Positions 3,068-64,000 of a DNA stretch of 64,000 nt are shown here, one piece after another (positions within the stretch are counted from its first letter, which is position 1; every line of letters begins with the position of its first letter). Both the position numbers and the translations under genes were made by a program. Origin of the DNA: Climacium dendroides (Eukaryota; Streptophyta; Bryopsida; Hypnales; Climaciaceae); contig OX467083.1 of the NCBI GenBank assembly GCA_950106755.1, positions 49,614,555 to 49,678,554 of the forward strand. The letters run 5' to 3'. The notes beneath the pieces are model-generated. The model saw nothing but the letters and a program-made list of their open reading frames with translations, made no database searches and was not told the origin of the DNA.

Positions 3068-3130
3068 AGGGAGTTAATAAATACTAACTTTGTTTCTTTT
3101 CCAGTTCATAGTAACACTAACAGCTTTAGA

Positions 3131-3146
3131 GTCCCCGGCGGCGCCA
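3131..3146 (-). other. retrotransposon primer-binding site
   Basis: On the minus strand TGGCGCCGCCGGGGAC lies about a dozen bases after the LTR terminus TGCGACA. It resembles the TGGCGCCGTTGCCGGGGA sites of plant Ty3/gypsy elements, which pair with the 3' end of tRNA-Asp, but lacks a few central bases. The tRNA match is from memory of the family. Confidence 0.65.
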
Positions 3147-3157
3147 GATTTTTGCTA

Positions 3158-6657: not shown

Positions 6658-6665
6658 TATTTAAG
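6658..6665 (+). promoter_or_regulatory. TATA-like box upstream of the LTR gene (P1, copy A)
   Basis: GACTATTTAAGGACT lies about 250 bp before the LTR gene's ATG. The same sequence occurs at the equivalent place in the copies at 42738 and 47467, inside a conserved block. Proposed as the promoter of the embedded gene; not tested. Confidence 0.4.
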
Positions 6666-6841
6666 GACTGACCTTGCCAATCTTACCTCTTTTCATTTCC
6701 TCGCGATTTAGGCGCACTTTGTGTGATTTCCAGCACCTCGTGTTTTCGTGTGGTAGTTGTATGGTGAGTGTGAGAACATACTTATAGAAATTGATAGTGC
6801 GTGACATTGTTCCGGTTGAGATCGGAGAGAGAAAGTGAGGA

Positions 6842-6861
6842 ACGGGACGTGCGGCTAGGAG
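6842..6861 (+). promoter_or_regulatory. conserved 20-nt leader motif of the LTR gene
   Basis: ACGGGACGTGCGGCTAGGAG lies about 50 bases before the ATG. It is identical at 42895-42914, 47666-47685 and 50174-50193, including in a copy whose protein belongs to a different subfamily. Its role is unknown. Confidence 0.6.
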
Positions 6862-6911
6862 AAGGTAAGGTAGAATCGGTAAGGAATCCATGTGAGAGGT
6901 GATCAAAACCC

Positions 6912-8582: not shown

Positions 8583-8733
8583 ATTAGTTAAAGTTTGTAC
8601 ATACTAGAGGGAGTTAAGAACGGATCCGGATTTTGTTCCGATCTGGCAGGGTAGTAGGTAGGATCGGAAGTCCAGCCTGAAAGTGTGGCAGGATTCCGTG
8701 GCACTTTTTGCCTTTTTGTACTTTAGGGTTTTG

Positions 8734-8741
8734 TATATAAA
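8734..8741 (+). promoter_or_regulatory. TATA box for retroelement RNA (P2, copy A)
   Basis: TATATAAA lies about 150 bp after the stop of the embedded gene, preceded by the conserved ACTTTTTGCCTTTTT. Counterparts occur at 44776 (GTATAAAC) and, in the other subfamily, at 58816. It is placed where the U3 promoter for genomic RNA is expected, about 750 bp before the LTR end. Confidence 0.45.
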
Positions 8742-10250
8742 CCAGTCCCTAAAGGGAGAGGGAGAAAAAAAACTTCTTTTGCAATTTTCCTTGTGTTTTT
8801 GCCTCGCTCCCTTATTATGCCGCTTCTATGTGTGTGTGTTAGTATTGTATGATAGGAAGTAAGGAGGGCAGGAAGGGAGTTGCAATCGGTTTTCTTTCCC
8901 TAGTGTTTCTATTCTCATTTTAAGTGTATGTAAGTAGGTAGTAAAGAGTTGGGAGTGCGCTTTAGTTCCTCAATCCGGAGTAATATCTAGGTTGTTGTGA
9001 AGGACCAAACCGGATCCACAGTAAGTAGAAGATTAGAAGATAGGATAGTGGATCTTCAGCCACTATAAGTTATGGAAGGAGTGGTGGGCCTACCACTCTG
9101 AAAATCAAGAGGCGACCCCTTTGATGGTAAAACAGAGGCTAAATTAAACTGGATAGGATTAAGAAGGTATGTAGGTAGATTGAAGCGGATTGCTCTACAA
9201 AGGTAACCAAGATCGGATTTTGTAGGATTCTTGGGTGTTGGTGTTATACGGACCGGATAGTTAGTAGGACCAGAATGGTGGTAGAAAACCATCCCTCAGC
9301 TTTCCGGGTATTACAGTGTTTCCGGTATTAGACATAGAACCGGAAAGTAGGTTTGTGTACTAACCTAGCCTAAAACGCTTAATGAAGCTAGATACTTCAC
9401 AGGATCTCGTGGGTTCGACCTTTAGAGTCACTTAGTTATACTCTAGAGCGGTTTTGGGGACTATAACGGGGAAATTACTTACCTTGTACTGCGATAGCAT
9501 TGTTGACAACTTGACAATTGTTATCATGTATGCTTTATTGGACAAGAGAAGGTTGATTCATGAGGAGATTGTTAATAAATATGTTTGTTTGGGGGCTAAT
9601 AGAGTTAGCACATATCAAGGACCAAAGACTAGTGTAAATTTCTAAATTCAAGATAAATAGACTCCATTCATTCTTGGTGCTAGTTGCAACAATTGTAGGA
9701 TCAACCTTGTTGTTGAAACCATGTCTAACTATCCAATGGTCTTTTGCTTAGAGGGCCTTTTTCAGTTTGTATACTCATATTTTTATTACAACAATAAGTG
9801 ATATATTGAATTGTAGTTCTAAGCTTGCTAATTTCATGGAAATTAAAGGAAATAAAATGTTAAAAAATATTAAGACATGTTGGATATCCATAAGGAAGTC
9901 AACTCAAAGCTAAAGATCATGTCTAAATATACAACTTTGCTTGCAAAGATGGACATAGGTATGTCAATAAGTCCTGGGCAAAAACCTAATCTTCGAGCTA
10001 CTAATAACTTCACTATCTTTGTTGATATTGAGGTGTTATTATCATTGATATGCTTCATTCCAATGTTGAATGACTTACATTACTTGATAAAGGTCCCCTA
10101 AGCTCATGATATTTTCATATTTGACTTAATGCAATCCATTATTGTGTACCAAGATGAACTTGTAAAGATGCTCATTGATGAATCTACATCTTACAATAAA
10201 ATAGACTTATCTTATTACTCTGAAATGTGAGAAAATTCCTTTGCAATTAA

Positions 10251-34245: not shown

Positions 34246-35343
34246 GAGGTCTAGATTATTTCTGATCTGGTTGCCCAACTCATTGGAAGAACGAGGAAGA
34301 GTAGGGCTACCCCAATATGCCCTTATCTCTTCCATGTGTACCATAACCACCAACTCCTAACTAGTTTAGAGGATAAGGAGTGGAAGATCCAGAAAGTCCT
34401 CTTGAAATATGGAGAGTCGGAGACAGATGAAAAGGTAGAATCTGTTCTTAGATCGGATCCGGAAACAGAAGAAGAGGATCTGTTGCCGCCTATAAAGCGA
34501 TAGAAGACAACGCCTCCCCACAGACAAGGGACGCCACCAAGTCACGGTAGATCAACTCCGAAAGGAAAACAGAAGGCTGTCAATGAGGAGGAATTGGATC
34601 TTCGGGATCCATTCAACAATTTAATAGCCATCTTCTGCATTGTCCGAACGGATTGGGAAATCAAGTACTGGACCTTGGAAGCAATCAGGAAGCTGGTGGG
34701 TGCGCCACCAGATAGCAAGTTGCCGGAGAAGGTAGCAGACTGCATCACCGACCCGGTCGAGTTCCGGAAGCAAGCGGAGGAGATAATTCGTCTGCAGAAG
34801 GAGGTGGATACCTTGAAGACGAAAAACTTCGTCTTAAAGGAGGATGTAACCACCACTAAGGAAATGGCGGAGAAGACTCGGAAGGTAGCTGAGCAGGTGA
34901 AGGACACCCTAGGAGTATCTAGGATGGCCGCCACCAAAGCTAAGCTATTCGACGAAGAGGTGCAAAAAGAGAAGAAACTATCCGGTTCCAGGATAGTGAG
35001 GATTCTCATGGATTATGCTGAACGGATTGAGGCAGTAATGATGGAGGCACGGACATCAGCAGACCGGATTGAGGAGAGTAGCTGGAAGCTAACGGGGGCT
35101 ACATGCTCCAAGGGGATCCAGCTCTCGGATCTTTCCCTACCGGAATCATTTCCGGATGAGTTAGTTGCCGAGGAGGGAAAGGATAGGACTCCCAAGTCCA
35201 AGAAGTCCGAGCAAGCATCCAAACCGGCTAACACCCTAGAGTCCGCCATTGATTTGGAGTGTACGCCCGATTTCGGCCAAGGCGATCCGGTTCCTAAACC
35301 TACAGATGGAGAACGGAATTGGAACCTGAGTGAAGTCTTTTGA
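34246..35343 (+). pseudogene. LTR-encoded protein gene, copy B (C-terminal two thirds)
   Basis: It enters the frame at DLVAQLIGRTRKSRATPICP and runs through the acidic linker and coiled coil (LQKEVDTLKTKN, MAEKTRKVAEQVKDTLG) to a premature TGA at 35343, after NLSEVF. A TAG at about 34501 interrupts the linker (KR*KTTPPH). First subfamily, very close to copy A. The N terminus is lost to the truncation. Confidence 0.75.
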
Positions 35344-36561
35344 ATAAATAGAAGCCGATCCGAGGAGCCCCACTTTAGGTTTAAGACTGTACAATAGCTA
35401 AGCTGTACATACTAGGTAGATTTAGAACGGAACCGGATCCTGTTCCGATCCGGTAGAATAGTAGGTAGGAATGGAAGTCCAGCTTGAAAATGCGGCAGGA
35501 TTCCGTGGTACTTTTTGCCTTTTTGCCTTTAAATAAACCAGTCCCTGGGAAAGGGAAGGAAGAAAAAGTCTTCTTTTGCAAATTTCTTTGTGTTTTCTAT
35601 TCGCTTCTTTGAATGTCGCTTCCATATGTGTGTTAGTATCACATGATAGGAAATAAAGAGAGCAGAAGTGGAGTTGCAAGTGATTTTCCTCCCTTGGTAT
35701 TTCCATTCTTGTTTTAAGTGTATGTGAGTGGATAGTAAAGAGTTGGGAGTGCACTTCAGTTCCTCAACACATTTAGAGTTTGAGATTCCAGGTGAGAAAA
35801 TCGTTGTTAGGCTAGGCGGATAGGGAGGGATTCCTTAGTCGTGCTAGAACTCCCGGGTGGGAAATCTAGTTGAGTGTCCGATCTCCTGTGAGGTCTTACT
35901 GCCCTAGTTGGTAAACGGAATAGCTCTAGTAGATGTTGGAATGGACGGGTTTACTTGCGACCACCTAACTTCGCACGGATAGGAACAGGTATCTAAGGTC
36001 GTTGTAGTATAAGAGGATCGTACGGGGGGTCTTTGTGTGCCCTGCAATCAGGATTAATATCTAGGTTGTTGTGAAGGACCAAACCGGATCCATAGTAATT
36101 AGAAGATAGGATAGTGGGTCTTTAGCCACTATAAATTACGGAAGGAGTGGTGGGCCTACCACTCTTAAAATCAAGTGGCGACCCCTCTGATGGTGAAACA
36201 GAGGCTAAATTAAACCGAATAGGACTAAGGATACATGTAGATAGGCCGAAACGGATTGGCCTACAGAGGTACCTGAGATCGGAATTTGAAGGATTCTGGA
36301 ATGGTAGTAGTATATGGGCCAGATAGTTGATAGGACTGGAACGGTGGGAGAAATCCGTTCCTTAGCTTTCCAGGTGTTGTAGTATTTTCGGTTTTAGATA
36401 TAGGACCGGAAAGTAGTTTTGGGCATTAACTTAGCTTAATCACTTAATAAGGCTAGATACTTCACAAGATCTCATGGGTTTGATCTTTAGAGTCACTTAG
36501 TTATGCTCTAGAGTGGTTTTTGGGAGTATAATGGGGAATTTACCTACCTTGTACTGCGACA
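34246..36561 (+). mobile_element. 5'-truncated LTR of the LTR-gene family (copy B)
   Basis: The copy begins abruptly inside the embedded gene at 34246, exactly where the inverted-repeat arm stops, and ends TTGTACTGCGACA at 36561. It keeps the second TATA region (TTTAAATAAACCAG near 35531), R and a complete U5, including a GAGGATCGTACGGGG block near 36013. No primer-binding site follows. Confidence 0.85.
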
Positions 36562-42457: not shown

Positions 42458-45400
42458 TGTCGCAATGTAAATTTTTGGTTTTGTTTAGCTTATCTAGAAT
42501 TCAGAGCGGAAACTAGTGAAGTGGAACCGGAATTGAGTGCAAGTTGTAGGAAAATCGGATATATACACGCGAAAAATGAAATAGTGGGTAGACCGGATTT
42601 CATTCAGTTGGAAATTTCAAATTGGTCGGGACTGGAAAACCATCCGAAATTAGGGTAAATACCGGATTAGGGTTGGACCGGATGTCAAGCTGTCAAACCG
42701 GAACACAATCATTATGACCACGGCGGAGTCCTGGGACTATTTAAAGACCAACTCTGCTAGTTTTACCCCTTTCATTTCCTCGCGAGATTGGGCGCTCCTC
42801 ATGTTGTTTACAGCATTTGGTACCCTTGTGTCAGGATAGTGTGATTCAGTAGAATTCTAGTACTTCCGGTTGAAATCGGAGAGAGAAGTAAGGAACGGGA
42901 CGTGCGGCTAGGAGCGGGTGAGGTAGAATCGGTGAGGAAATCCGTGTGAGAGGAGATCCACTCCATGCCGCTGATACGTCGGGAAAAAACGGGGTCGTCA
43001 GGATCCGGTCCGGTCGAGGTGAAACTCCGGAAGATATTTCCGGCGATTCCCTCAGACGACCAGAAGAAGGACCAACTCATAGAAGACTTAGCTTCTATGG
43101 ATTGCCCGGGATTCATTGAGAAACTTTGGGGATTCCGGGAGGAGAGAATGGTGAAGGAACTCTTGGGCAAATTGTCCAATGAGTTCGATAACACCTTGAG
43201 AGGGAATCCGTCCCTTTGGACTGAGGAAGTCTAGAGAGGAGTGTATGATTTCCGAGTAGGGGGTCTTGGGATGGCTGGCTGGAAGGATGAATTCATCCGG
43301 GGGAAGTTCCATGGCGTTTCCAACCCTAAAGACGGATATGCAGTTGACGACTACATAAACGACCGACACCGTCGTCTTTTGAGGTTTCTAATTCCGATCC
43401 TTCATCCGGAGAAACCGACGAGGGTGACAATCACCTTAGGGAATACCATCTTCGGTTCCCTGAGCGGAAGCCGGAACGTGGATTGGGCCCGAATCCTTTT
43501 TGATCTGGTAACCCAGCTCATCGGGAGGGTAGGAAAGAGTAGGGCTACATCCATATGCCCGCACTTGTACCACTTGTACCACAACCATTAGCTCCTGACG
43601 GTTGATGAGGAGAAGGAGTGGAAGGCTCAAGGAGCTCTCCTGAAGTATGGTGAATCAGAAGAAGACAATGAAGCGGAATCGGTTCCAGATTTGGATCCAG
43701 AAACGGAAGAGGATGAGGAGGATGTAATGCTGCCGATCAAGCGACAGAAGACAATTCCTCCCCATGGTCGAGGAACACCTCCAGGTCATGGCCCGTCAAC
43801 TCCAGAGGAGAAACAGAAGGGTGTTATGGAGGAAGAAGTGGATCCACGGGATCCATTCAATAATTTGATTGGCATTCTTTCCAGTGTCCGGGCGGATTGG
43901 GAGGTGAAGCATCTGACCCTGCAGGCGATCGGAAGACTGGTGGATGCGCCACCAGATAGCTAGCTACCAGCGAAGGTAGCCGACTGTATCACCGATCCGG
44001 TCGAGTACCGGAGGCGGATGGAAGAAGTAATCCGACTTTAGACAAAGGCAGATATCCTGAAGGCGGAAAATCTCGTCCTGAGAGAGGATGCAGCCGCCAC
44101 GTTGGAGATAGTAGAGGAAATACGTCGGGTAGCGGATTAGGTGAAGGACATTCTTGAAGTACCCAGGGCGGCCGCCACCAAAGCCAAGCTATTCGATGAC
44201 GAAGTCCATAAGGAGAAGAAGCTATCCGGTGTTAGGATAGTAAGGATTCTCACGGACTATGCGGAGCGGGTTGAGACGGCACTGAAGGAGGTGCGGATTT
44301 CAGCGGATCGGATTGAAGAGAGCAGTCGAAAGTTGATAGGAGCTAAGGAGGTCCCTCTGTCGGAATTCTCCCTACCGAAAGAGTTTCCGGATGTGACAGT
44401 TGCTGAAGAGGAGAAGAATAAGACTCCCAAGCCTAAAATGACTGCACAGGCATCTAAACCGGCAAACACTCCAGAATCCACCGTCGATCTAGAATCCACA
44501 CTCGATTCCGGTCAAGTTGATCCAGTTCCTAAACCTGTGGATGGGGAACGGAACCGGAACCTAACTGAAATCTTCGAAGGGATGGAAGCCGAGCCGAAGA
44601 GTCCTACTTTAGGGTTAGGATTGTAGATAGTAAAAGTTTTTGTACATACTAGAGGAATTAGATTAGAACCAGATTCTATCCGGTGGATGATAGGTAGGTA
44701 GGATCAGAATTTTAGCCGGAAAATGCGGCTGGATTCCGTGGCACTTTTTGCCTTTTTGCACTTTTGTGGTGTTGTGTATAAACCTACCCTGAGAAGGGAA
44801 GAGAGAGAAAAAAACCTTCTTTTGCAAAATTCTTTGGTGTCCTCTGTTTTTGCTGTTGTATGTCTGTGCCATTAGAGTTGTGTGCCTGCTGTATGATCGG
44901 AAGTGAGGAGAGCAAAGAGAGAAGCTAAGAGTTGACATCTTCTCCCCTTGGTGTATTTTATTCTTTAAGTTTCAGTGCATGTGAGTAGGTATTAAAAGAG
45001 TTGGGAGTGCGCTTCAGTTCCTCAGCGTGTCTAGAGTTTGAGATTCCGGGTGAGAAAACCGTTGTTAGGCTAGGCAGATAGGGAGGGATTCCCTACTTGC
45101 GCTAGAACTCATGGGTGGGAAATCCGGTTGAGTGTCCGATCTTTTGTGAGGTCTTGCTGCCATACTTGGTAAATGGAATAGCTCTAGTAAGTGTTGGAAT
45201 GAACGGGTTCACTTGTAACCACCTAACTTCGCACGGATAGGAGAGGATGCCCAAGGTCGTTGTAGTATCAGAGGATCGTACGGGGGGTCTTTGTGTGACC
45301 TGCAATCCGGATTAATACCCAAGTTGTTGTAAGAGACCAAACTGGATCCGTAGTAAGTAGGAGAATAGAAGATAGAAGAGTGGGATCTTCCGCCACTATA

Positions 45401-45831
45401 AGTTACGGAAGGAGTGGTGGGCCTACCACTCTAAAAAAACTAAGGGGCGAACCCTCTGATGGTGAAACAGAGGATAAATTAAACCGAGTGGTATCCAGAA
45501 GAGTACCGTTAGGTTGGAACGGATAGGTCTACAGAGATAACCAGGGACGGAAATTATAGTCTCCCGGGGTTGTGATTGTTGTTCAGACCGGATAGTTGGT
45601 AGAACCGGAATAGTGGTGGGAAGCTAATTCTCCATTTTCCGGATTTTATAGTTTTTCCGGTAATTGACTTGAAACCAGAAGTTGGGTTTATAAGCAAACC
45701 CATCCAAAATTGTGTAATGAAGCCAAATACTTCACAGGATCTCGTGGGTTCGATCTTTAGAGTCACTTAGTTATACTTTAAAGGAGTTTTCGGGAGTATA
45801 ACAGGGAGTTTACTTACTTTGTACTACGACA
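42458..45831 (+). mobile_element. solo LTR with embedded gene (copy C)
   Basis: Begins TGTCGCAATG and ends TACTACGACA, flanked by a perfect 5-bp duplication AGTAT (42453-42457 and 45832-45836). It has the same internal plan as copy A: TATA-like box at 42738, leader motif at 42895, gene at 42965-44626, second TATA at 44776, R/U5. The insertion split the TATA box of a chromovirus LTR. Confidence 0.88.
42965..44626 (+). pseudogene. LTR-encoded protein gene, copy C (five stops)
   Basis: From MPLIRREKTGSSGSGPVEVK to KSPTLGLGL, collinear with copies A and D and about 553 codons. In-frame TAG codons lie at 43232, at about 43589, 43962 and 44039, and near 44138. Sister copies have Trp, Gln or Lys there, so most are single transitions from TGG or CAG. 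All conserved blocks (GKLSNEFDNTLRG, GKSRATSICPHLYH, VREDAA-like coiled coil) remain readable. Confidence 0.75.
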
Positions 45832-47187: not shown

Positions 47188-48739
47188 TATCACAACGTGA
47201 ATTATTGGCTTTGCTTAGCTTACCTAAAAGATTGGAGCGGAAACTAGTGGAAAGGAATTGAATCTGATTAAGAGCTGTAGGAAAACTGGAATTATACACA
47301 GATAATGAAATAGTAGATGGACCGGATCTAATCCAGTCCAAAGTTCAAATTGAACGGAACTGAAAACCCATCCGAAATTGGTCTACAAATCAGATTAGGG
47401 TTAGACCGGATGTTAAGTCGTCAAAACCGGAAAAAGGTCATAATGGCCAATACGGGGTCCTGAGACTATTTAAGGACTGGTCTTACCAGTCTCACCTCTT
47501 TTCATTTTCTCGTGGTTTAGGCGCTCCTTGTGTTCTTCTTTGTTTTCAGCACTTCATTTCTCCGTGTAATATTTGTATGGTAGTGTGTGAGAGTGTACAA
47601 ACAAAGACTTGATAGCGTGTGACACAAATACTACTTCCAGTTGAGATCAGAGAGGAAAGTAAAGAACGGGACGTGCGGCTAGGAGAGAGTAAGATAGAAT
47701 TGGAAAGGTATTGAAGTGAGACGATCTATGTCCATGTCATTGTTGCATAGGAAGAGAGCGAGATCAGCTAGCTCCGTTCCGATTGAGGTGAAGCTCCGGA
47801 AAGTAGTTCCGGTTATTCCCTCCGAAGAACTAGAAAAAGTCCAACTCATGGAAGATTTAACTTCCATGGGTTGCCAAGGGTTTGTGGAGAAGCCTTGGGG
47901 ATTTAGAGACGAACGGATGGTGAAAAAACTCTTGGGCAAGTTGTCCAATGAATTCGACAACACCTTGCGAGGGAATCCGTCCCTTTGGACTAAAGAAGTA
48001 TAGAGGGCAGTGTATGACTTTTGGGTATGTGGTCTAGGAATGGCAAGCCGAAAGGATGAGTTCATCCGAGGCAAATTTGAGGGTGCCCCCAATCCAAAGG
48101 AAGGATATGTAGTCGAGGATTGCATAGATGATCAGCACCGTCGCCTTCTTTAGTTCCTGATTTTGGTTCTCTACCCGAAAAAACCAACCAGGGTAACGAT
48201 CACCCTTGATAACACTATTTTCGGTTTCCTATGTGAGATCCGGAACGGTGATTGGGCCTGGATTATTTTTGATCTGGTCGCCCAACTCATTGGGAGAACG
48301 GGGAAGAGTAGGGCTACTCCGGTTTGCCCCTACCTCTTCCACCTGTACTATAACCACCAACTCCTAACTAGTGCAGAAGAGAAAGAGTGGAGGATCCAAG
48401 AAGTCCTCTTGAAATACAAAGAATCAGAGATAGACGATGAAGTGGAATGTATTCCTGGATCGGATCCGGAAATAGAAGAGGAGGAGGAATAGGCTCCGCT
48501 GCCGCCTATCAAGTGACACAAGAGGATGCCTCCTTACATGTGAGGGACGCCACCAAGTCGCGACAAGTCAACTCCAGAAGGAAGACCGGAAGAGGGAAGA
48601 TTGTCACTAAAGAAGAAATGGATCCCCGGGATTCATTCAACAACTTAATAGCCATCCTCTGCAGCGTCCGAGCGGATTGGGAGATCAAGAACCGGACCTT
48701 GGACGCGATTGGAAAGCTGGTGGATGCACCACCAGACAA
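47188..48739 (+). mobile_element. LTR of the LTR-gene family (copy D), cut by a CACTA element
   Basis: Starts TATCACAACGTG (mutated TGTCGCAACGTG) directly inside chromovirus integrase. It has the TATA-like box at 47467, leader motif at 47666 and gene start at 47734, and stops at 48739 where a CACTA terminus begins. Its other half should lie right of the window. Confidence 0.8.
47734..48739 (+). pseudogene. LTR-encoded protein gene, copy D (N-terminal part)
   Basis: MSLLHRKRARSASSVPIEVK leads into the conserved N-terminal block, with TAG stops at 48001 and near 48150 and more stops plus a frameshift in the acidic linker (48490-48600). The frame reaches VDAPPD and is cut by the CACTA terminus at 48740, at the point where other copies read VDAPPDSKLP. 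Confidence 0.7.
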
Positions 48740-49628: not shown

Positions 49629-50173
49629 TGTCGCAACCTAACTTTTTGATTTTTCTCTCTATCGTGTTTTGAAACACGAAATCCGGATTAAGTAGACCCG
49701 GATTGGCACGGAAAGGGAAGGAAAAGCCAAGGGTTAGGAAGACTAGAACCATAAGCCCTGAATGAACCGGATTATGGAATGGAACGGATATCGGAGACGA
49801 ATCCAGTCTAGTCCCATAACCGAAGGAACGGATCCAGGATTCGCGTTCGGAAAATCGGAAAAAGTAATAATTAGGTTTTTAGGGTACAAAAGAGGCTGCT
49901 TTAGGGTTTGATTGTCATTTGCACTTGAGAGCACCAGCGTACTTGGCGCGCTCTCAGTGCTTTGTGTTTGTGTCTGCAAATTGAGTGTATTTGTGCAAAA
50001 TTGTGCAAGGTTTGAGAGTTGTGTGTAAGCGTGTTTGTTTCCTTTACACGAGCGTAGAGATTAGGGAGGAATTGGTTGCGTGAGCGTGATTGAAATTGAG
50101 AGAATACCACGAGAATTGTGTGAGGTTGGCGCATTGAGCAACTCGGTTGAGACCGAGGAGTGAGTGTGAGGAA

Positions 50174-50193
50174 ACGGGACGTGCGGCTAGGAG
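50174..50193 (+). promoter_or_regulatory. conserved 20-nt leader motif (copy F)
   Basis: ACGGGACGTGCGGCTAGGAG, 32 bases before the ATG. Identical to the motif in copies A, C and D although the downstream protein is highly diverged. Confidence 0.6.
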
Positions 50194-50225
50194 AGAAGTG
50201 AGGTAGCGATCTAATAGAGAGACGA

Positions 50226-51977
50226 ATGCCGCAATTAAAGCGCGGACGGAATCAGATACAAGCGAGCGCACAAAGGATAGAAATCAAAGTGAGGAAGGTG
50301 GCTCCTTTAGAGCCCAGTAGTGAGCGGGAGAGAGGAGAATTGATGGAAGACCTCTCCGCCATGGGATGCATGGGGTTCCTGGGGAAACCCTGGAGCTTTC
50401 GGAGCGAGGCAATAGTTAGGGAGCTCATTGAAGGAGGCCCTAACCAGTTCGACAACTCTCTCAGACCGGTTCTGCCTATGTGGATACGAGAGATTTGGAG
50501 GAAAGTTTACGACTTGGAGGAAGGTGGCATAGAACAGGCCAACCGGAAGGGAGACTTCGTGCGCGGGAAGTTCAGGGGAGCAGCTAACCCCAAGGACGGA
50601 TACGCCATTGAAGACTGTGTCAATGCGCGACATCGGCGGTTGCTCGAATTCCTGGTCCCGATCCTACATCCGGAAAAATCCACCCAGATGACTTCCACAA
50701 TCGGAAATGCGATCTTTGGAGCCCTGAACGGAGAGAAGCGGATGGATTGGGCGGCCTACATTCAGACGTTGGTGAATGTTTTGGTCTCAAATGTGGGAAA
50801 GAGTAGGGCTACTCCAGTATGCCCCTACCTTTTCCACCTGTACAAGAATCAGAGTCTCCTGACTTTAGAGAAGAACAAGGAGTGGAGAGCTCAAATGGCT
50901 CTTCGGACATGCGGTGGATCGGATGAAGAATCCAAGACGGAACCGAAGGATAAGGGTGAGAACCCTAAGAAGAAGAATTGGACAGAAGAGAAAGAGGAGG
51001 AAGAGGACATTCCTCTCAACCGGAGGAGGATCAAGAGGATGTCCAATCTAAGGGGCTCTCCTTCAGGGCTTTGGAAGGACAAGGGACCGAAAATAGTGGA
51101 GTCAGTCGTCCCAAAGAAGCAGGAGCCGGTGGAAATGGTCAAGCCGAGATCCGTTCCATCGTCTCAGTTGATGGACCTGACAGGCCCATACAACGACCTA
51201 ATCCGGATTCTCAGTGCAGTGAGAGCAGATTGGGAGGTGAAGACCACGACACTTCGAGAGGTGGCGGATTTGGTGGGAAGCGCTCCAACTAGTTCTCTAC
51301 CGGAAGCCGTGGTGAATTGCATCAGCAATCCGGACAAAGTTAAGGAGTTGGAAGATAGATTGCTGAAGCAGAACATCAACCAGCGAGAGACAGACGAGCA
51401 GGTGGTCCGATTGCGAGGAGAGATCCAAAGTTACCGGAAGGACTTGGATGCTAGTCGCGACCAAGTGAAGGCCGCAATGTCTCTACAGGAGGAGACCAGG
51501 GCTGCGATCGACCGGATGACGGTAGTGGTAGGGGCATCCGGTGACGTAATGGCGAAGGCCAAGCTGTTTGATGAGGAGGTACATAAGGATCAGAAACCTT
51601 CAGGTACCTGCATTGCTCGCATCTTGGCTAACTTTGTCGGAGAATTAGAAGAGGCCATGAAGGAATTCTGGAAGGACGCAAAGGGGTTGGGGGACACCGT
51701 CCGGAAGTTCCAGAGTGGGTTAGTCTCTTTATCCGGGATTTCGATCCCAGATGAGTTCGATGAGGTACAGATATTGGAGGGGAAGTTCGAAACTCCAATA
51801 TCGAAGGAGAAGGAGGGCGGAAGGACTTCCACTTCAGAGGCCCCACGGACCATGACAGGGGTGACTTCCCCTGTAGAACCGGAACGAGTTCCGGAAGGGG
51901 GAGATAAGAGTAGGAATTTGAGTGAATTCTCCCCCATAGCTACTCCAGATAGTGGTGGACCCTCTCAGGAGGGATAG
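50226..51977 (+). CDS. LTR-encoded protein, intact 583-residue copy
   Basis: An uninterrupted frame from MPQLKRGRNQIQASAQRIEI to SGGPSQEG. Residues ~40-220 form the conserved block shared with all copies: MGCMGFLGKPWSF, NQFDNSLRP, VYDLEEGGIEQANRK, NPKDGYAIEDC, RHRRLLEFLVPILHPEKS, VGKSRATPVCPYLFHLYKNQ. Residues ~230-300 are charged and rich in Lys/Glu. Residues ~330-350 (DLTGPYNDLIRILSAVRADW) are again conserved, followed by a coiled coil (~385-450) and the motif AKAKLFDEEVHKDQK. No signal peptide, catalytic motif or zinc knuckle is visible. It is encoded in LTR sense, after the leader motif and before the LTR's second TATA. I do not recognise the family; a structural or Gag-like accessory, or silencing-suppressor-type role, would be a guess. 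Confidence 0.75.
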   Translation: MPQLKRGRNQIQASAQRIEIKVRKVAPLEPSSERERGELMEDLSAMGCMGFLGKPWSFRSEAIVRELIEGGPNQFDNSLRPVLPMWIREIWRKVYDLEEGGIEQANRKGDFVRGKFRGAANPKDGYAIEDCVNARHRRLLEFLVPILHPEKSTQMTSTIGNAIFGALNGEKRMDWAAYIQTLVNVLVSNVGKSRATPVCPYLFHLYKNQSLLTLEKNKEWRAQMALRTCGGSDEESKTEPKDKGENPKKKNWTEEKEEEEDIPLNRRRIKRMSNLRGSPSGLWKDKGPKIVESVVPKKQEPVEMVKPRSVPSSQLMDLTGPYNDLIRILSAVRADWEVKTTTLREVADLVGSAPTSSLPEAVVNCISNPDKVKELEDRLLKQNINQRETDEQVVRLRGEIQSYRKDLDASRDQVKAAMSLQEETRAAIDRMTVVVGASGDVMAKAKLFDEEVHKDQKPSGTCIARILANFVGELEEAMKEFWKDAKGLGDTVRKFQSGLVSLSGISIPDEFDEVQILEGKFETPISKEKEGGRTSTSEAPRTMTGVTSPVEPERVPEGGDKSRNLSEFSPIATPDSGGPSQEG

Positions 51978-52307
51978 GTAGTTAGGAATTAGAAGGTAGA
52001 AAATTTTGTTAGACCGGACCTTATGCCGGAAACACTACAAGGAATTGGGGGTTACCGTGACTGCGGCAAATGACTGCAAAACTGTCATGTTGCAGTCGCA
52101 AAACGAGAATGTGACTTGAAAAATGAAAATGTGACTCCGGGGACCTACAGTCATTTCGGACAAGTCATTTATAAGAATGACTACAGATTTATTATCACCC
52201 AACGAAGTGGGGATGGATGGAACTTTGGATGAGAAGAGGCTTAGTTGAGGGAGATAAAGAAAATGAGACTAAGGAAAGATGGCTTGGGTTGAGTTGGACA
52301 AGCATGG

Positions 52308-52710
52308 GACCCCTCTAAAATCTGACGTGGACATTTTTGCAGCAGTCACATGTAAGTCATTCTGGAGTCGTGTATGACCCCTTTTAAATCTGACGTGGAC
52401 AGATTGGGCGTAGTCACAAGGAAGTCATTCTGAAGTTGCGTCCGACCCCTTTTAAATCTGACGTGGACATTCTGAACCGATCGTCCTGCAGTCATGCTAG
52501 AGTCGCGCGTGACTCCTCTTAAATTTGACGTGGACATCAGTCGCAGTCATTGTGTAGTTATGTTGAAGTTGCATCTGACCCCTTTAAAATCTGACGTGGA
52601 CGTCACTCGCAGTCATGGTGAAGTCACGTTGCAGTGGTGTCTGACCCCTCCTAAATCTGACGTGGACATTCCAAACAGAGTCATATTGCAGTCACGTTGC
52701 AGTCGCAAAT
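52308..52710. repeat. six tandem ~67-bp subterminal units of CACTA 1
   Basis: Units start at 52308, 52376, 52444, 52511, 52577 and 52643, each beginning GACCCCTTTTAAATCTGACG and ending in GCAGTCAC-like motifs. Subterminal repeats of CACTA elements bind the element-encoded protein; these are the candidates here. Confidence 0.85.
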
Positions 52711-53127
52711 GAACATGATGTAGGCAACAATTTAGGGGCAGCATGGAGTCATTCACAGGTCGTGCTGCAGTGTAGATGGAGTTGCGTCACAGTAGCACAT
52801 GCACTATTCCGCTAGTAGTGCTGAAGTCACGGCAACTTCGAAGGGGTCATTCACCAGTCGGTTCATCTACACTACATTCAAGTAATATGTACTACCTAAT
52901 TACGTACAAACGAGCAAGAACAACATTGCAAACGCAGAGCCGTGGTTGAAGAAACGGTAAGCCAACGAAAATTGACACAACAATGACAAATTTACAAGCA
53001 CGGAGTTAGAAATTGAGTCCTCTATTGCAAAAGGAATGGAGTGGGATAGAATAGCAGCCCAAATATACATGGCGTCCACAAGTGGGTTTAGGGTGCAGGA
53101 AGTCTCCAACAAAATTTACAAGCTAAG

Positions 53128-53403
53128 TCAAGTACCATTAAAAAGCTTCATTGACTTCTCCGACCATATTGCGCAAGACCCCTTCACGTCCTCTATAAAC
53201 TCGTGGTCCACTACGTAATTGGGAACCATGAGGCTTACCCCTATTTGTAGAACCTCATGGACGTCCACCCCCACCCACAATGCTGATATGTCCTTACCAT
53301 GATACTTGTGAGACCCTGGAAGTCCGCTGACCATTCCAAGGGCCACCTTCTGCCGTACAACGCATGGATTCATGAGGAAAACTTCATCGCTAATGATGAA
53401 ACC
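53128..53403 (-). pseudogene. possible exon of a CACTA accessory protein
   Basis: After a CAG acceptor at 53404-53406 the minus strand reads GFIISDEVFLMNPCVVRQKV, then ALGMVSGLPGSHKYHGKDIS, to CAIWSEKSMKLFNGT and a stop at 53128. The late CAIWSEKSMKLF recalls the IAWP-type module near the ends of plant CACTA accessory proteins. It could be a downstream exon of the HAD gene or a separate remnant. Confidence 0.3.
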
Positions 53404-53929
53404 CTGTGGCATGCAAGACATAGCACAATTCAGTTAACAGTTACATAATCAAAAAAGCGCAAGATGCGATTTACTTGAGACATCACGCATTCTAGAATGG
53501 CCTACAAGGTTCACAAGAGCATTACTTAGTGCAGTGTTGCGGAGCCTGTGAATATACCACTTCATCGTGGGACTGACTCACGATGGACACTTGAATGACC
53601 AACAACAATGCTGATAGGCGGGATGAACTCATATCCCACAACAACAACGCAAGAAAAAACTACAAACAACAATTGGTAGTCGATCTTGGCAGTGGCGTCC
53701 ATTTTTGTTCTCAGAGTAACACCCTGCATTGCATACGCCATTGAGTCATTATGAAGTCATGAAGCAGTCATGGACAGAATTCACGACTTTCCCGACACTA
53801 CAGTACGACTCGATGACCAGCCATGACTGGAACGTCACTTCTGGGCAACTTATACACGACAAGAACGCAACTAAAGGGTGGACTGCTTGAACAAAAAAAT
53901 GAAATGAGTGCTATGTAGTGCCTACCTTA

Positions 53930-55128
53930 TCATGGCGTGACCCCGTGGCAGAGGTTGACTTCGATCGTGTGTTCTGCTTCCCCGTCCTTGCCTGCAAAAA
54001 CAAGGAGTAGAAGTTAAAAATCAAAAAAATATGAAGGTGAGGGTCGTAGGGTGTTCGAACCAGCCGGACTGCAAGTCCCTCACCTCCCACCATGTTCACA
54101 AAATTGTATCCAGTTCCACTTCTGTGCTTCAGGAGCCACTGAGATTTGGACTTGTTCACAACTTGTGGGTACTTTGCACGGAAGGTAGTCACGTCAGGGC
54201 ATCTCCAGAAGGCTTCCAGCAAAGGCCACAGGTATAACTTCAAATATTCCTTGTCGTCAGCCAAGGTGCGCAGCCACTTCACATAGAAAGGATTTGTGAT
54301 GAGCACGTTGGATTGTGCATTCTCCGTGACCCTACAAAGCTTACTATCTACAATGATTGTGTTCTCTGGATTGAACTCAGGGTACTGTCCGTACACTACA
54401 GATAAGTTTTTTTGATCTGAGGTTCCCTTATCTTGCTCCCCTCCACTTTCGGAATCAACTGCGCAAGACCAACAAAAGAGTGGATCCCTATCATAGGCAC
54501 GACTGTAAAACCCTGCCAACATTTGAGGGACCACATCCTCCATGTACGGAGCACTTTTACTACCCCAAAATGCAACTTTGAAGTGCCTGAAGCATCGGTC
54601 CAAAAAGTGCTTCAGCCATGGTCGAAAAACTACTCTATGGAACTGCGTATGGTTGCTAGCATAGATACTACAGTTCGGGTTTGGAGTAGCAAACAAACTG
54701 TAGTCCAACATGGTTCCTTGTACATTGAAAATGACAAGCTTCCGAACATGTAAACTACTGCCGCCCATTCGATTAGTCACGAGGTCCTGCAATGTAAGGA
54801 AAGGCACTCCGGGAATGGACGCACATGGACTTGTGTGCTTGGAGATACAAACCTTAAGAGACTTGGGAGCTTTCTTAGCCTTCCTTAACAGCGCTGCTGC
54901 GACATTGGCTACAGTTAAGCGGTTAGTGGAGGCGCCCTCGAAACCTCCCTCGCCTCCTTCATCGGGGCTGACCTCCACGGTGCCGCTTAGAAGGGCTGGC
55001 TCCTCAAAGGACTGGGCCGCATTAGCGTCTGCTGCAACGACTGCTGGAGCCGCTCCCATATCTGCTACAATGGCGGGTGAACCTACAACGGTGCTTTCAG
55101 GGCGTCTTCTTGCTTGTCCCCGGACCAC
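53930..55128 (-). CDS. FCP1/SCP-like HAD pseudophosphatase carried by CACTA 1
   Basis: Exon 55128-54084 opens MVRGQARRRPESTVVGSPAI; an acidic Ala/Gly-rich leader of ~110 residues precedes an FCP1-homology HAD domain at about residues 130-300. Recognisable parts are KLVIFNVQGTMLDYSLF (motif 1), FRPWLKHFLDRCFRHFKVAF then WGSKS (motif 2), KNLSVVYGQYPEFNPENTII (motif 3 Lys) and VDSKL (motif 4). Motif 1 is normally DxDxT; here both Asp are replaced (NVQGT), so phosphatase activity should be lost. An 86-92-bp GT-AG intron to exon 53991-53930 gives a 368-residue protein ending NLCHGVTP; unspliced, the frame runs to 53911 (405 codons). It lies on the strand opposite to the element's transposase remnant. 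It may be a captured host gene. Confidence 0.55.
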
Positions 55129-57200
55129 GGAACACGATAATGAGCGCCACGAGCAAACGCTAGGATAGATAGTCGCTAAGAATCAGTTGCAAAAATGATC
55201 GCAAAGCCAAAAAATGATCCCCTCTACGTGGAGGTGACATTAGGGTTTGCCAGTGCGGCGTAGGACGCCTGCTCCCACGAGCGTAGTGGATTCCACGTGG
55301 ACCGGCAACTTCAAATGCAAATGAGGCTTTTCCAACTTCAGAATGACTACGACGGAGGCCTGTACAAGACGACTATACTGTTTGGATAGATGCATGCGAC
55401 GGAGGCCTGTACAGACTAACGTTTGCATGCAGCACAGTCGATCGAGGGAGGCACTACATGCATGCAAGAAACAAATCTGCGACAATTCATAAGGCGCAGT
55501 TAAGTGGAACTCACAACTCTCTCCTCGTGCGGAGAACGGGTTCCAAGGCCTTCAGCATCTTGGCCTTCTTCTGGTCGCGCAGGACCTCATAAGTTGTCTT
55601 CGGATGAGGCGGGCTCCTTGACGACGACTCCATAACACAACGACTGTCGCGTTAGATGCAAGCATGCACAAAATTTGCAGTAGGCCGTTCCGGACGTTGA
55701 TTGTCGACAAAATCGCGGAGACAAGTTGTTGCTCCAAGGCGCTAAATCGAAACAATTCAGAAGGCAGCGGAGCGGGGAGGAGGCTGTAACGCAAATGGCA
55801 GAGTCGCGGACTGCCTTGTAAGTGCTGAAACCTTACTTTGAACTCTGATGGCGGGGCAGGGAGTGGTCATGATGGGGTCCCGGTAGTTGGCGGTGCATCA
55901 TAAAGTCCCTCGCAAAGGCGGCGGACGTGGGGCGGAGTTGCGCAATGAACACGGGCGACTGTGAGGAGTGAATGCATATACATCGGTTTTCAAGTGTGGT
56001 GTGACCGTGTACTTTTCAATCTTTTGTTCATGATGATGATTGATGGATAGAATTATGCATTGTCGTCCTCATTTTTCGTGTGCATGGTACGGTGGGTGGC
56101 GGTCCCCCTGGTCGGTAGTGCATTGGAGTCCACTTCAGCATGAGTTCGTTGTCCCGTAAAGAAAAGTCACCCGGAAATCACGATGAAGTCATTTTGAATC
56201 GTGAACAACTCCTACGTGACTTCTGTCAGTCATTTCTCTGTCATGACTTGATTTTCGTTACTCGGAAATGACTCCTGGAAGTTAGTTTGTGGTGCTGAGT
56301 CTAAATCTGTGTGTAGTAGAAGCCTTCTGTTCCAATTCCTTACGATGCATAGACCACTTCTTTTCTTTGTAATTCGTTGTAATCTCTTCCCTAAGGACCT
56401 TAAACCTTACAGCACTCCCATTACAATTGCTCAATCAGAAACCACCTTATAAATTACGGAGTATGGAAGCCTTGGAAGAGGAGTATGTGTGTAGTGTAAA
56501 GTTTGAGCCTCTTCCCAAATGCAGCCCATTAACTTCAATGCCTTGTTCAGGTCTCATGCATCCTGAATTCAGTACATAGGATAGTCAGGCTAGATGAAGG
56601 TGTGTCAGAACGATAGACACTATAATAATTTGGGACCCGGAAGTCACGCTGTAGGACAATGACTATTTCCATGGATAAGAATATAAGTATGACCAACGAT
56701 AATGTCCATGACAATGGACGTACATGCTTAAGAATACCCATTTAAAGAAAGGTTAATTGTTTGTTGATGAAAGATTGTGAAGCCAAAAAAAAAATGGAAT
56801 AAGAATTGTCATGAATTGACCTCAATTTTAGCTGCCCTTAGACTCATGTCTGACGCGAAAATGGAATTTGGCTAATCATACCACATGCTCTAACTTTCAT
56901 ACGTGCAATATGACAGACAGTAGTCGAAGATGAGGATACAACTACAGAGTGACTTCACTGTGGGTAAGTCCATCGTCCCGTCCACAGACACAGAACCCTT
57001 AGAAGTCATATAGAAGTCAGTACGTAGTCCCTGGCCTCTACGCGATTTGCTCATCACTCCGTCGGCAGTCACACTAAAGTCACATTTCCGTCTTTCATTT
57101 CAATCCCATAATTGCACACCGTAGCAATTATAAGTGTCTGTAGTGTGTTTCTCCAAATAGGAGTTCCTGAAACAGTGTTTGCAGACATGACTACACTATA
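55129..57200. other. CACTA 1 interior without recognisable gene
   Basis: GC-richer up to about 55980, possibly promoter of the HAD gene, then AT-richer. Short motifs of the AGTCA type recur at 56150-56290. No frame here matches a family I know; the DUF4218 part of a transposase is absent. Confidence 0.5.
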
Positions 57201-57206
57201 CTATGG

Positions 57207-57566
57207 GTGAAACCAATTAACACGCGAGAGAACCCTACGTATGTGCGTGATGACTCAGGATTCCTTTTGGTGAACTTCCGCCATAAACTCCCTCGCATGG
57301 CCGAGCCATTCATCTTCCCGAGTCAAGCCACACAGGTATTTTTCTCCGATGCGGCGGACAGACCTGGCTGGAAAGTGGTCTTACGCCACGAAACCCGTTC
57401 GAAATGAGAGGTACTCAACCACACAGATGCCTTCATCACAACTAATGGCGAGGCCATGGGACTTACAGCTCCACGAAGAGTGTTGGATAGAAGCTCCACC
57501 GCCAATCTAGTCGGAGCCATCGAATTATCGGTGGAAGAGAACTTATTGGCGCAAGAGCAATATTAG
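57207..57566 (+). pseudogene. CACTA transposase C-terminus (DUF4216 tail) in CACTA 1
   Basis: NPTYVRDDSGFLLVNFRHKL, PRMAEPFIFPSQATQVFFSD, then after an in-frame TGA at 57405 (CGA in origin, judging by the sister copy), EVLNHTDAFITT to LAQEQY and a TAG at 57564. It matches 49317-49628 of CACTA 2 over its whole length. Confidence 0.75.
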
Positions 57567-58680
57567 GTACAGTCCTACTTAGGTCCGTAGTTGGAAGGTA
57601 GTCACGTCGTTTTTAGTGTCCCTCATTGTGTCATGGGTCGCGGAGCATCACAGAAGCTAAACGTGTCATGCAGCAATCAGGCAAGTAGACCACTTGCAAA
57701 CATTTCGGGAGTTAGTAGTTATACTAGAGTCATTAATTAGACTCTCCAGTCGTGCTTTAGTCATTCTGTAGTTGCATCACAGTCATGGTGAAGTCATACT
57801 GCAATCAGTTAGGCTTCACTTCCCACAAGGTGTCCCTTCCTCTCAATGTCATTCCATTTATTGGGTGATGACCTTGCCTTTGTCATTGTCCTTCATTCAT
57901 ACTCAATACAATTTTCCGCTTGTGCAGGTACTGTATTAGACACATTTCTATGAACCTTGGTGTCCAATGCATGAATGCAAACTTTATCAACCAAGTGTGA
58001 ATGCCAAAACCGCAAATATGATGTGGGAGTAGTATTCACTTCATCTTTGAGACATTGGCATGCTAGTTGCCGCCTCAAACGCCTCCATGTTCAATGAGCT
58101 TCCACCCCGAGTAGTATTATACCTTCTTTGTACACTTCATGTTGTATGTGCTTCATTTGAATAATGACACTCCCACATCTCTCTCTTTGTACCTAAATGT
58201 TGTTTCATTTCAGGCTTCCTGCATCACATCTTATCGGAAGTTCCATCCATTTGCAGCATGGCCCCCATTCTCCTAAACACCTTATTGCATGCCCCTAGTT
58301 ATATGTACAAGAAGTCCTAGTGATTCTGTAGTCATATTAAAGTCACATACCCGATACTGTAGTTGCCCGCTCTTGTCCTCCGTGGACCGCTCTGGGGCTT
58401 CACTTCTTTTTCTTTACGTATAAGTAAAAAGAAAACATCTTCCCTGTGACTTCTTTCAGTCCTAGAGTCATACTGCAATCACTTGGCAGTCCCCTGTAGT
58501 CTCCAGTCGCGTTTCTGGTAGCCATGTCACTTCCTCCTGGACCCTGTGGACGGAACGTTGTGGATGAACCTCCAGCGCAGTCACTGTTCATCCCACTGTG
58601 AATCGCGCGACTACAGAATGACTGAATCACGACTACAACGTTGTGAAGATCGGCCCACTGGTGCAATTACGGAGGTGAAG
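57567..58680. other. right subterminal region of CACTA 1
   Basis: No gene seen. Repeated AGTCATNCTGCAATCA-like motifs (for example 57766-57810 and 58440-58520) mirror the left subterminal region. Confidence 0.55.
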
Positions 58681-58815
58681 TCACGATGCAGTTGCAAAAT
58701 CCCTGCAGTCACGATAACCCCCAATTCCTTGTAGTGAAAGTTAGGAAAAGTTCAGATCCGAAAATCTCGGCCGGATTAGTGCCGGATTTCCGGGGAGACC
58801 TTTTTGTAAATTTTG

Positions 58816-58823
58816 TATATAAT
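58816..58823 (+). promoter_or_regulatory. TATA box for retroelement RNA (P2, copy F)
   Basis: TATATAAT lies 80 bp right of CACTA 1 and matches the minus-strand TATATATAA at 4191-4201 in the paralogous LTR. CACTA 1 separates it from the embedded gene and any U3 sequences upstream. Confidence 0.45.
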
Positions 58824-59855
58824 TTGAGTCTCAAGATTGAGACAAGGAGTTTTTTCCTTCTTGTATATGCTGTCTCTTGTGTATTTTCTATTGTTTTTCC
58901 TTGTCTTCCCAAAGATTGGCCGGATAAAGGAGGGAGAGATTGAGTATAGATGAGCAGAGTGTGGGAGGATCTTCTCCCCTTATTGTCTTTTTGTGATTGC
59001 CGATGCATGTGAACAGGTTGTAAGTGTTGGGAGTGAGTCAAGACACCTCAGTAGGTTTAGAGCTCATAATTCCGGGTGAGATAGCCAGTGCTAGGCTAGA
59101 CAGCAAGAAAAAGGATTCTCAAACTGTGCTAGAGCTACCAGATGGAATGTCTGGGTTAGCCTCCGAACGCTTGAGAGGTCTCACTATCTGAGGAAGTAAA
59201 CGGAAGAGTGCTAGATTGTGCTGGCACGTGTAGACACACTTGTAGCCACCTTAGTTTCGCACTGATTTCAAAAGATAGTAAGGTTGTTGTAGTGGATGAG
59301 GATCGTACGGGGGATTTTTGTGTGACCTACAGACTAGGATTACTTCTAGTTTGCTGTGAAAGATCAAACTGGATCCTGTTAGAATAGGAGGATAGATTAG
59401 CTGAGTGAATTTTCCATCACTATAAAGACCGGAAGGAGAGGAGCGCCTACCTCTCTGAGAACAAGTGGCAGATCCCTCTGAAGTGCCAACAGAGGTTAAG
59501 CAAAACCGGAACAGAAACTGAGGAAAGGAAGTCCTCGATCAAAGTAGTAAGAGAACCGGTCGGGAGTGTGAGTTCCGGTTTGGTTCTTGTGGGTTGTCAA
59601 TTGATTTTGATTCGGGTCAGTATTAGTCTGGACCGGATCCGTCTATAGAAAGAGGAGGAAGTTATCCGGTATTTGGGAAAAAAAGTGAAGAGTGATAAAG
59701 AAGAGTAATCTAATTGAGAAACTTTTCTTAAATCATCTAGTAACATGAAACACTTCACAGAGTCTCTTGGGTTCGATCTTTAGAATCACTTTGTTATGCT
59801 TTAAAGGGGGTTTTGTGAGCATAATAGGGAATTTCACTTATCTTGTACTGCGACA

Positions 59856-62272: not shown

Positions 62273-64000
62273 TGTGGGAATCCGGAATCCGGAAACGGAT
62301 CAATAATACAAGAAGTAGGTACGAAAAATAAAATAAAAATAAAAAAAATAATAGTTAGAGTGTGATTTTTGGACCAGATAACTTGAATTAGGAAATAAGT
62401 GTTCCGGTACCACCCGTAACCGGAACTTATCCGGATCCGGAATCCGGACTCATTCAGAACACAGGAACCTACCGTATAGGCCCTGTAGCTACGGAAGTAG
62501 GATATCGTTGAGGCAACGGACCTGTAGCCGTTGTCCTTAAGACCGTAGAGAGACAGTTTAGTACTTAAGCCGTCTTCCTAGGGTTTCCTCTTCCCTTTTC
62601 TGTTCTGTGTACCCGAGACTGTTTGTGTGAGTAGTTGAGGGAAAGAGTGGTGAGTTAGCGACTGAGGAAGGACTACTTTCTTTTCGTTCTCACTTAGATC
62701 TTATGGCATCCGGACCAGTACGGAGGACAGCGGTATCTGCCCGGGTTATCTCTCCGGCCATTCCGGATAGCCCGGAACTACACAAACAGTTAGAGGAGGA
62801 CTTGACTAGATTAGGATGTGTCGGTTTACTACACCGACCGTGGAATCTCAAGAGTGAGGAGATGATTCAGGAGCTACTTCACGGTGTTCCGAATCAGTAT
62901 GAGCTTACTTTGAGAGGGCGGCCAGTCGCGTGGACCGAGGACATCTGGGCGGATGTTTATCAGTTCCGGAAGAGTGGGAACGGTTTAGCATCGAGGACGG
63001 ACCGTTTTGTAGCCGGGAAGTTCACCGGGACTGCAAACCCTAAGGACGGCTTTGCTATCAGCGAGTGTAAGGACGAGAGACATAGGCGGATTCTAGAGTT
63101 TCTAATTCCGATCTTATATCCGGAAAAGCCAACGTGGGTTACCATTACGGTGGCCAACACTATCTTTGGAGCTATGGAGAACCGGATAGTCCACTGGGGT
63201 AGGATCATAGCCGGGATAGTGGCTAAATTAGCGGATCACGTGACCCGAGCTAAGGTGAGTCCGGTTAGCACGTATTTGTTTCATCTGTACCATCAACAGG
63301 AACTTTTGAGTGCGGCGGAAATAATTCAGTATGACACCGGAAAGACACTCTTGTCATACGGACTTTCCGGGGAGGAAGCGGAGGAACCGGTCGAGTCAGA
63401 ACCAGAGGAACTTCCCGAGGAACGTCTGATGGACCCAAGGACCAAGAAGAGGAAGTCAACCGATCCGGGGTCGAGAATCAAGCCACCGACACTAGAGAGG
63501 GGGGAGTCCAGCAAGGGACCGGAGATGGAAACGGAATCTGCATTTTTCAATGCGGGGCTCGATTGGATACGTGAAGCCAAGGTACTTCACGACGGATTGT
63601 CGGATCTGGTGATAGACACCGCGGAAGTACTGAAGGTGGATCCGGATCAGATCGTGGAAGCTGTCAAGCGACTGCCCAAGCCGGAGGATCTGAAGAAGAG
63701 GGATGAGCGGATCCAAGAATTGGAGGCGGAACGGAATATACTCCAGGCTCGGGTGAATTGGGCGGAAGGAGAAATGGTAGCTGCAAAGGAGAAAGAAAAG
63801 GAGGCCCTCGCGCTGGTCAAGAATCTAACCGGGGCAGTCAACATCAAAGCCGACATCATCACGAAGGCTGCCTTGTTTGACTCCAAGATGATATCCGAAG
63901 GCCACATTACCGGAACCAAGGTAGTTACCATCCTCGTAGACTTCACCGCGAGAATAGAGCGAGTTTTCAAGGAGATCCAAAAATTGCTGGCGGCCATCGA
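62273..64000 (+). mobile_element. probable third LTR-gene retroelement (runs off right edge)
   Basis: Sequence character changes near 62273 (TGTGGGAATCCGG) from CACTA 2 to CCGG-rich DNA like that of the other LTR copies. A related ORF follows at 62703. I infer an LTR start here, but neither the usual TGTCGCA terminus nor a target duplication can be checked. Confidence 0.5.
62703..64000 (+). CDS. LTR-encoded protein, third subfamily (partial, open at right edge)
   Basis: An open frame of at least 432 codons with no stop, starting MASGPVRRTAVSARVISPAI. It aligns with the other copies through LEEDLTRLGCVGLLHRPWNL, GVPNQYELTLRG, AGKFTGTANPKDGFAISECK, RHRRILEFLIPILYPEKPTW and VSPVSTYLFHLYHQQELLSA. 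An acidic linker follows (EEAEEPVESEPEELPEE), then NAGLDWIREAKVLHDGLSDL and a coiled coil (ELEAERNILQARVNWAEGEM), ending in the AKAALFDSK-type motif shared with AKAKLFDEE. Nucleotide similarity to the other copies is low while protein blocks persist. The ATG follows a long leader beginning near 62273. Confidence 0.7.
   Translation, partial: MASGPVRRTAVSARVISPAIPDSPELHKQLEEDLTRLGCVGLLHRPWNLKSEEMIQELLHGVPNQYELTLRGRPVAWTEDIWADVYQFRKSGNGLASRTDRFVAGKFTGTANPKDGFAISECKDERHRRILEFLIPILYPEKPTWVTITVANTIFGAMENRIVHWGRIIAGIVAKLADHVTRAKVSPVSTYLFHLYHQQELLSAAEIIQYDTGKTLLSYGLSGEEAEEPVESEPEELPEERLMDPRTKKRKSTDPGSRIKPPTLERGESSKGPEMETESAFFNAGLDWIREAKVLHDGLSDLVIDTAEVLKVDPDQIVEAVKRLPKPEDLKKRDERIQELEAERNILQARVNWAEGEMVAAKEKEKEALALVKNLTGAVNIKADIITKAALFDSKMISEGHITGTKVVTILVDFTARIERVFKEIQKLLAAI

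Follow-up and report, generated by a model that had tools for sequence, protein, structure and literature searches.

Here, we describe a retrotransposon family of Climacium dendroides that carries a conserved gene inside its long terminal repeats (LTRs). It was found in a stretch of 64,000 nucleotides of contig OX467083.1 (the window), which holds seven whole or partial copies of the gene, U1 to U7, six of them within LTR units. The family is a Ty3/gypsy retrotransposon. Because the gene sits inside each LTR, the full element carries it twice, and recombination between the LTRs leaves solo LTRs that keep it; element lineages maintain the gene under purifying selection, much like gag. As judged from structural models and by analogy with VANC21 of the transposon VANDAL21, there is an even chance that the LTR protein dimerises, binds the word ATCCGG/CCGGA of its own family and counters host silencing in trans.

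A gene inside the LTRs of a Ty3/gypsy retrotransposon

The whole open reading frame (ORF) is open in the window only in U6, while the ORF list shows fragments elsewhere. A preliminary description, made from the letters of the window, had treated 49629..59855 as one LTR unit with the gene; this stands, except that 52033-58736 is an inserted CACTA transposon of about 6.7 kb, so that the LTR of U6 measures 3,523 bp (49629-52032 plus 58737-59855). Its flanks, CCAAC and CCAGC, are equal in four of five bases. U6 and the U1 element, which links the LTR to an internal region, are composed as follows:

49629..52032, plus strand: U6, first LTR part with head (start TGTCGCA), gene and start of the tail; ten other copies have head, gene and tail in this order too
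50144..50206, plus strand: conserved block just upstream of the ATG, around ACGGGACGTGCGGCTAGGAG; 81-84% to U2 and U4 by blastn, and alignment of ten heads
50226..51977, plus strand: LTR-borne ORF of 583 amino acids; conserved N-domain (about 18-235), acidic linker, long coiled coil (about 320-500) and disordered tail predicted
52033..58736, no strand assigned: CACTA transposon inside U6, foreign to the LTR; 32-bp inverted ends, AAA target duplication
58737..59855, plus strand: U6, remaining LTR tail (end TGCGACA)
3158..4729, minus strand: U1, the 5' LTR belonging to a full element, itself without its 5' portion; gene residues 452-578 remain
1..3157, minus strand: internal part of the U1 element with primer-binding site, gag and protease region, frames broken; gag and protease 80-81% to the element on C40

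The LTR end of U1 adjoins the primer-binding site (PBS), TGGCGCCGCCGGGGA, which is followed by gag. This neighbourhood, pointed out in the preliminary description, recurs in the genome (412.6 Mb, 123 contigs): for a 301-base query spanning the U1 LTR end, the PBS and the gag leader, 34 of the 41 matches scored, the query itself counted, extend from query base 6 or earlier through base 296 or later. On the other side, the junction of the polypurine tract (PPT) with the LTR was matched 36 times at up to three mismatches against 0 in the control, a count that old PPTs with more than three mismatches escape. The LTR portion shows at most one mismatch in 26 of these junctions, and three have an LTR start like that of subfamily B. 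PBS and PPT junctions are spaced 5.9-6.3 kb apart on C2 (the U1 element), C3, C38 (at 13.1 Mb), C40 and C41. For the U1 element, the PPT-LTR junction lies 6.3 kb downstream of the U1 LTR end, the expected place of the 3' LTR, which begins 3.2 kb left of the window.

Full elements with an internal gag-pol region, which the preliminary description had proposed to look for elsewhere in the genome, were found on C16 and C40. The 5' LTR on C16 has a length of 3,537 bp with head, gene and tail, followed by PBS and gag; the 3' side shows reverse transcriptase (RT) and integrase fragments, the end of the internal region and a 3' LTR with head, gene (broken by about 3.9 kb) and tail, the final bases being mutated. 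Identity between the two LTRs is 95.8% for the head and 94.2% from the late gene to the tail, with 89.4% and 91.2% for a pair of gapped gene pieces, whereas the 5' LTR reaches 80-87% with U6. The element, which is inserted within the tail of a further LTR copy, has CGTTT on both flanks and confirms that a full element holds two gene-bearing LTRs; its gene copies bear stops (six in the 5' LTR). On C40, PBS, gag, zinc knuckles, RT, RNaseH, integrase and PPT are present together with a 3' LTR that is complete and carries the gene, while the 5' LTR is truncated and the frames are broken. The order gag, RT, RNaseH, integrase was read from Pfam matches on the frames of this element, the protease stretch giving no Pfam match, and the Ty3/gypsy assignment follows from the domains of these elements. 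Further candidates lie on C38. At 13.1 Mb, the 3' LTR is complete and the 5' LTR is lost except for its extreme end; at 2.89 Mb, a remnant of gene and tail has the junction, with no LTR within 5.7-9.7 kb downstream. A possible two-LTR element at 27.7 Mb was dropped owing to unequal flanks (TGTAT and ATTGC).

Units with 5-bp duplications and without an internal region predominate, as would be expected if the 3.5-kb unit were an independent mobile element that came to lie beside gag by chance. Some units may be of that kind, but for the family overall the idea is refuted and deserves next to no credence: the junctions with PBS and with PPT return at exact positions on either side, and the two LTRs of C16 resemble each other far more than unrelated copies do and are enclosed by one target duplication. 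The preliminary description had named such chance adjacency at 3158 as the finding that would overturn its reading, which therefore stands.

Solo LTRs retain the gene

Most copies of the family are solo LTRs retaining the gene. The 20-base LTR start of subfamily A, to which U6 belongs, occurs at 326 genome sites at up to one mismatch and at none for the reversed control, which excludes a chance origin; since 26 of these starts (about 8%) belong to recognisable 3' LTRs, solo LTRs dominate. Ten copies, the top ten protein matches after U6, were fetched for a closer look, and all have head and gene; eight tails are complete, another is interrupted and the last is truncated. Seven are flanked by exact 5-bp duplications (TCTGA, AGAAC, CTCTC, ACTTA, CATGG, GCAAT and GCTCA), of which CTCTC is weak evidence, as it falls within a simple repeat. 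For the remaining three, C34 agrees in three of five bases, C39 has no duplication, and the truncated tail of C1a leaves it untestable. PBS or PPT was found beside none of the ten. The earlier proposal that collapsed elements leave the gene behind is thus borne out.

The other copies in the window are the following:

6385..9496, plus strand: U2, solo LTR of subfamily B; exact GCATT duplication on both flanks
34247..36561, plus strand: U3, subfamily B LTR without its 5' part
42458..45831, plus strand: U4, solo LTR of subfamily B; exact AGTAT duplication on both flanks
47188..48738, plus strand: U5, subfamily B LTR shortened by a CACTA transposon beginning at 48739
62703..64000, plus strand: U7, divergent gene copy extending past the window edge (L044 1-1740)

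Six units with the ends TGTCGCA/TGCGACA had been described. Their ends, duplications and gene are present, three of them (U2, U4 and U6) having both ends and 5-bp duplications as reported; U3 lacks its 5' part, however, U5 is cut by the CACTA transposon, and U7 is added as a seventh copy, for which LTR ends and a target duplication were looked for and not found.

Selection on the gene

The ratio of nonsynonymous to synonymous substitution (dN/dS) was determined by the Nei-Gojobori method. Among 14 copies of subfamily A (91 pairs), it ranges from 0.10 to 0.35 with a median of 0.17, values that biased loss of methylated C could have lowered by inflating dS; the two shifted frames of the same copies have medians of 1.00 and 1.21. 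No internal stop is present in three of the 14. Five pairs of subfamily B gave 0.13-0.24. Between U1 and the element on C40, dN/dS is 0.20 for the LTR gene piece and 0.13-0.17 for pieces of gag and protease. The divergence of the LTR tails from U6, about 8-12%, is below dS in the gene, so that the tails may be under constraint as well.

A captured gene that rides along and is useless to the element would suit the lack of any Pfam family above the cut-off for the LTR protein. We regard this as very improbable, as dN/dS is close to that of gag and protease and the gene has been retained in both subfamilies and in relatives elsewhere.

The LTR protein and its relatives

The proteins of U2 and U4 (subfamily B) share 37-39% identity with that of U6. 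Two protein searches returned 129 ids of relatives, among which no precomputed Pfam domain was present. A tree of 106 rows places U6 with P0129, groups U2, U4 and U5 together and has two further clades of 31 and 56 rows; U7 pairs with P0084 on long branches, a grouping that is possibly false. In viral contigs, 59 stretches fitted a pattern and none coded for a relative. Transposase_32 (PF20167) gave 0 matches in the genome and likewise 0 in control genomes, hence its absence is not shown. Plant mobile domain, Transposase_28 and Athila ORF-1 are absent from the domain lists of the ten proteins scanned.

A sequence search of the Protein Data Bank (PDB) yielded 24 weak matches, all from profile position 229 onward and mostly to coiled coils. 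The coiled coil and the disordered tail are taken from a structural model. Foldseek searches with two models against PDB and with the full model against BFVD returned nothing at E<=0.001; in structural alignment, the lone and tentative match of the N-domain model is the DNA-binding chain of VANC21. To a protein that the preliminary description had not recognised, and that matches no Pfam family above the cut-off, the models add a lead: a putative VANC21-like fold joined to a long coiled coil.

The word ATCCGG and its possible reader

A word of this kind was sought after the match to VANC21. As CCGGA had already been spotted by eye, the first count was not a blind one, and a ranking of all 6-mers followed. 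Among noncoding 6-mers, ATCCGG ranks first in U6 and U7, joint first in U2 and second in U4, where the top 6-mer, ACCGGA, has the same core. In the pooled noncoding DNA of U6, U4 and U7, it was seen 35 times against 1.7 expected (order-1). U7 is the densest, with 17 sites in 1,453 noncoding 6-mers. The density of ATCCGG is 4.72 per kb for noncoding LTR DNA, 3.80 for the gene, 2.43 for internal DNA and 0.84 for the remainder, where unmasked relatives may persist. Five other stretches of the window, including a chromodomain gypsy region, the second CACTA and an RT fragment, show 0-0.42 per kb, the chromodomain gypsy region having none in 4,158 bases. For 16 of the 27 motif columns of subfamily A, no subfamily B column lies within three bases, which implies that the sites turn over while their density persists, and this speaks for the parallel with VANC.

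These data would fit a mechanism in which the gene in each LTR gives rise to a protein of N-domain and long coiled coil. The protein would dimerise and bind the word repeated across its own LTRs and internal region, and, once bound, would relieve the family in trans of silencing by the host, in the way that VANC21 acts for VANDAL21. In its narrower form, namely that the LTRs bear a VANC-like, sequence-specific anti-silencing gene and that solo LTRs are cassettes of gene and target word defending full elements in trans, we hold this reading to be plausible though somewhat short of even.

Several results weigh against a strict parallel with VANC. ATCCGG is not limited to noncoding DNA but is common in coding DNA as well, where CCGGA outnumbers synonymous shuffles in all seven frames tested (p 0.001-0.041) and ATCCGG in five, the frames being partly non-independent. 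Neither L044 nor the LTR units of the window contain a tandem array with the word in it. It is barely better kept than other CG-containing words (0.49 compared to 0.44 in heads, 0.59 compared to 0.45 in tails). By sequence, DUF1985 (PF09331) and DUF287 are missing from the complete domain lists of ten proteins and from the 25 of 77 families listed for 50 members.

The density in coding DNA would equally suit a coiled-coil accessory protein (a particle or Gag cofactor, an integration targeting factor or a transcription activator), with the CCGGA word serving another purpose. The long coiled coil in the model and purifying selection, which fits any useful protein, are in line with it as well. 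We consider it a possible but rather less probable explanation, given that the lone structural match of the N-domain is a DNA-bound anti-silencing protein and that noncoding DNA of U7 and of the two subfamilies is rich in the word, mostly at different places.

Signals around the gene

The placement of the gene within the LTR bears on its expression. Ten aligned heads share a TATA-like block some 340 bases upstream of the ATG, and ten aligned tails have two such blocks downstream of the gene. TATA-like blocks on both sides suggest a gene with its own promoter that would be placed in the U3 (unique 3') region of the LTR, as is sag of mouse mammary tumour virus (MMTV). Alternatively, the gene could belong to the R-U5 (repeat and unique 5') part, with transcription beginning upstream and the gene forming the first ORF of the genomic RNA before the PBS, like the extra ORFs upstream of gag. 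The block in the heads would allow for this, as would the GT-containing, donor-like letters directly before the ATG in most rows; we nevertheless think it improbable, for the two blocks in the tails fit a downstream start. The block 50144-50206 is common to both subfamilies and could be an element of the 5' untranslated region or a splice-donor region.

The PBS seems to fit tRNA-Asp. In the U6 tail, GTCGTTGTAGT and GGGTTCGATC lie at 59285-59300 and 59764-59775, the latter conserved in most aligned tails; presumably, they resemble the 5' end and T arm of tRNA-Asp. ARAGORN predicted no tRNA gene in the window, and Rfam gave no tRNA match on the LTR tail.

Neighbouring features of the window

Close to its left end, the CACTA transposon inside U6 has repeats of about 68 bp. 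An ORF on its minus strand (53914-55128) contains an NLI-interacting-factor phosphatase domain (Pfam E 8.1e-11) and is perhaps a captured gene. U6 itself is enclosed by a second CACTA-like stretch (48739-49628 and 59856 to about 62250), which includes a DUF4218 ORF on the minus strand at 60639-61430 (Pfam) and a nested 178-bp inverted repeat at 61374-61551. The remnant U3 is flanked by inverted arms (32707-34245 and 36832-38298) that are 98-99% identical and contain three 72-bp tandem units each. Host-like genes lie at 12710-16233 and 27023-29923, with IFT122-like pieces (under the Pfam cut-off) and H+-pyrophosphatase exons; together with the CACTA genes of the window, they suggest a plant lineage in which cilia genes persist. 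At 40892-41551, another gypsy element has left an integrase end and a chromodomain (Pfam E 1.4e-15).

Comparison with known systems and significance

The motif bound by VANC21 is short, abounds in the noncoding stretches of the protein's own transposon and often forms tandem repeats (PMC5735166, PMC10398659); VANC is known from VANDAL DNA transposons (PMC5735166, PMC13317346). The crowding of a short word, here ATCCGG, in noncoding parts of the own element is shared. In contrast, the carrier of VANC21, an anti-silencing protein, is a DNA transposon (VANDAL21, a non-TIR Mutator-like element of Arabidopsis), whereas ours is a Ty3/gypsy LTR; here, DUF1985 is missing by sequence, the word is not tandem and is frequent in coding DNA, and the protein is known from sequence and models.

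Genes borne by LTRs are described for MMTV-like retroviruses in PMC4667437, where 490 of 527 contigs with MMTV sag are solo LTRs and dN/dS among copies is 0.289. Both cases have a conserved gene within the LTR, found mainly in solo LTRs and with low dN/dS among copies. The protein is a different one, however, the element here is a plant-type Ty3/gypsy, and the U3 placement shown for MMTV would be a possible one here. Ogre, Retand and Athila are plant LTR retrotransposons with extra ORFs whose role is debated or unassigned, as stated in PMC6317226; they share with our family an additional gene, which here lies inside the LTR and is hence doubled. No report of an LTR-borne VANC-like gene was found in the literature searched, which left most subscription journals out of reach.

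With the gene in the LTR, a solo LTR is a possible gene dose and not a scar. If the protein counters silencing, recombination between LTRs, usually a loss to the element, would leave protective copies. VANC-type self-recognition would then reach beyond the DNA transposons of flowering plants into retrotransposons. The two subfamilies, with the same word density at mostly different places, would offer a test of the co-evolution of a reader and its DNA word.

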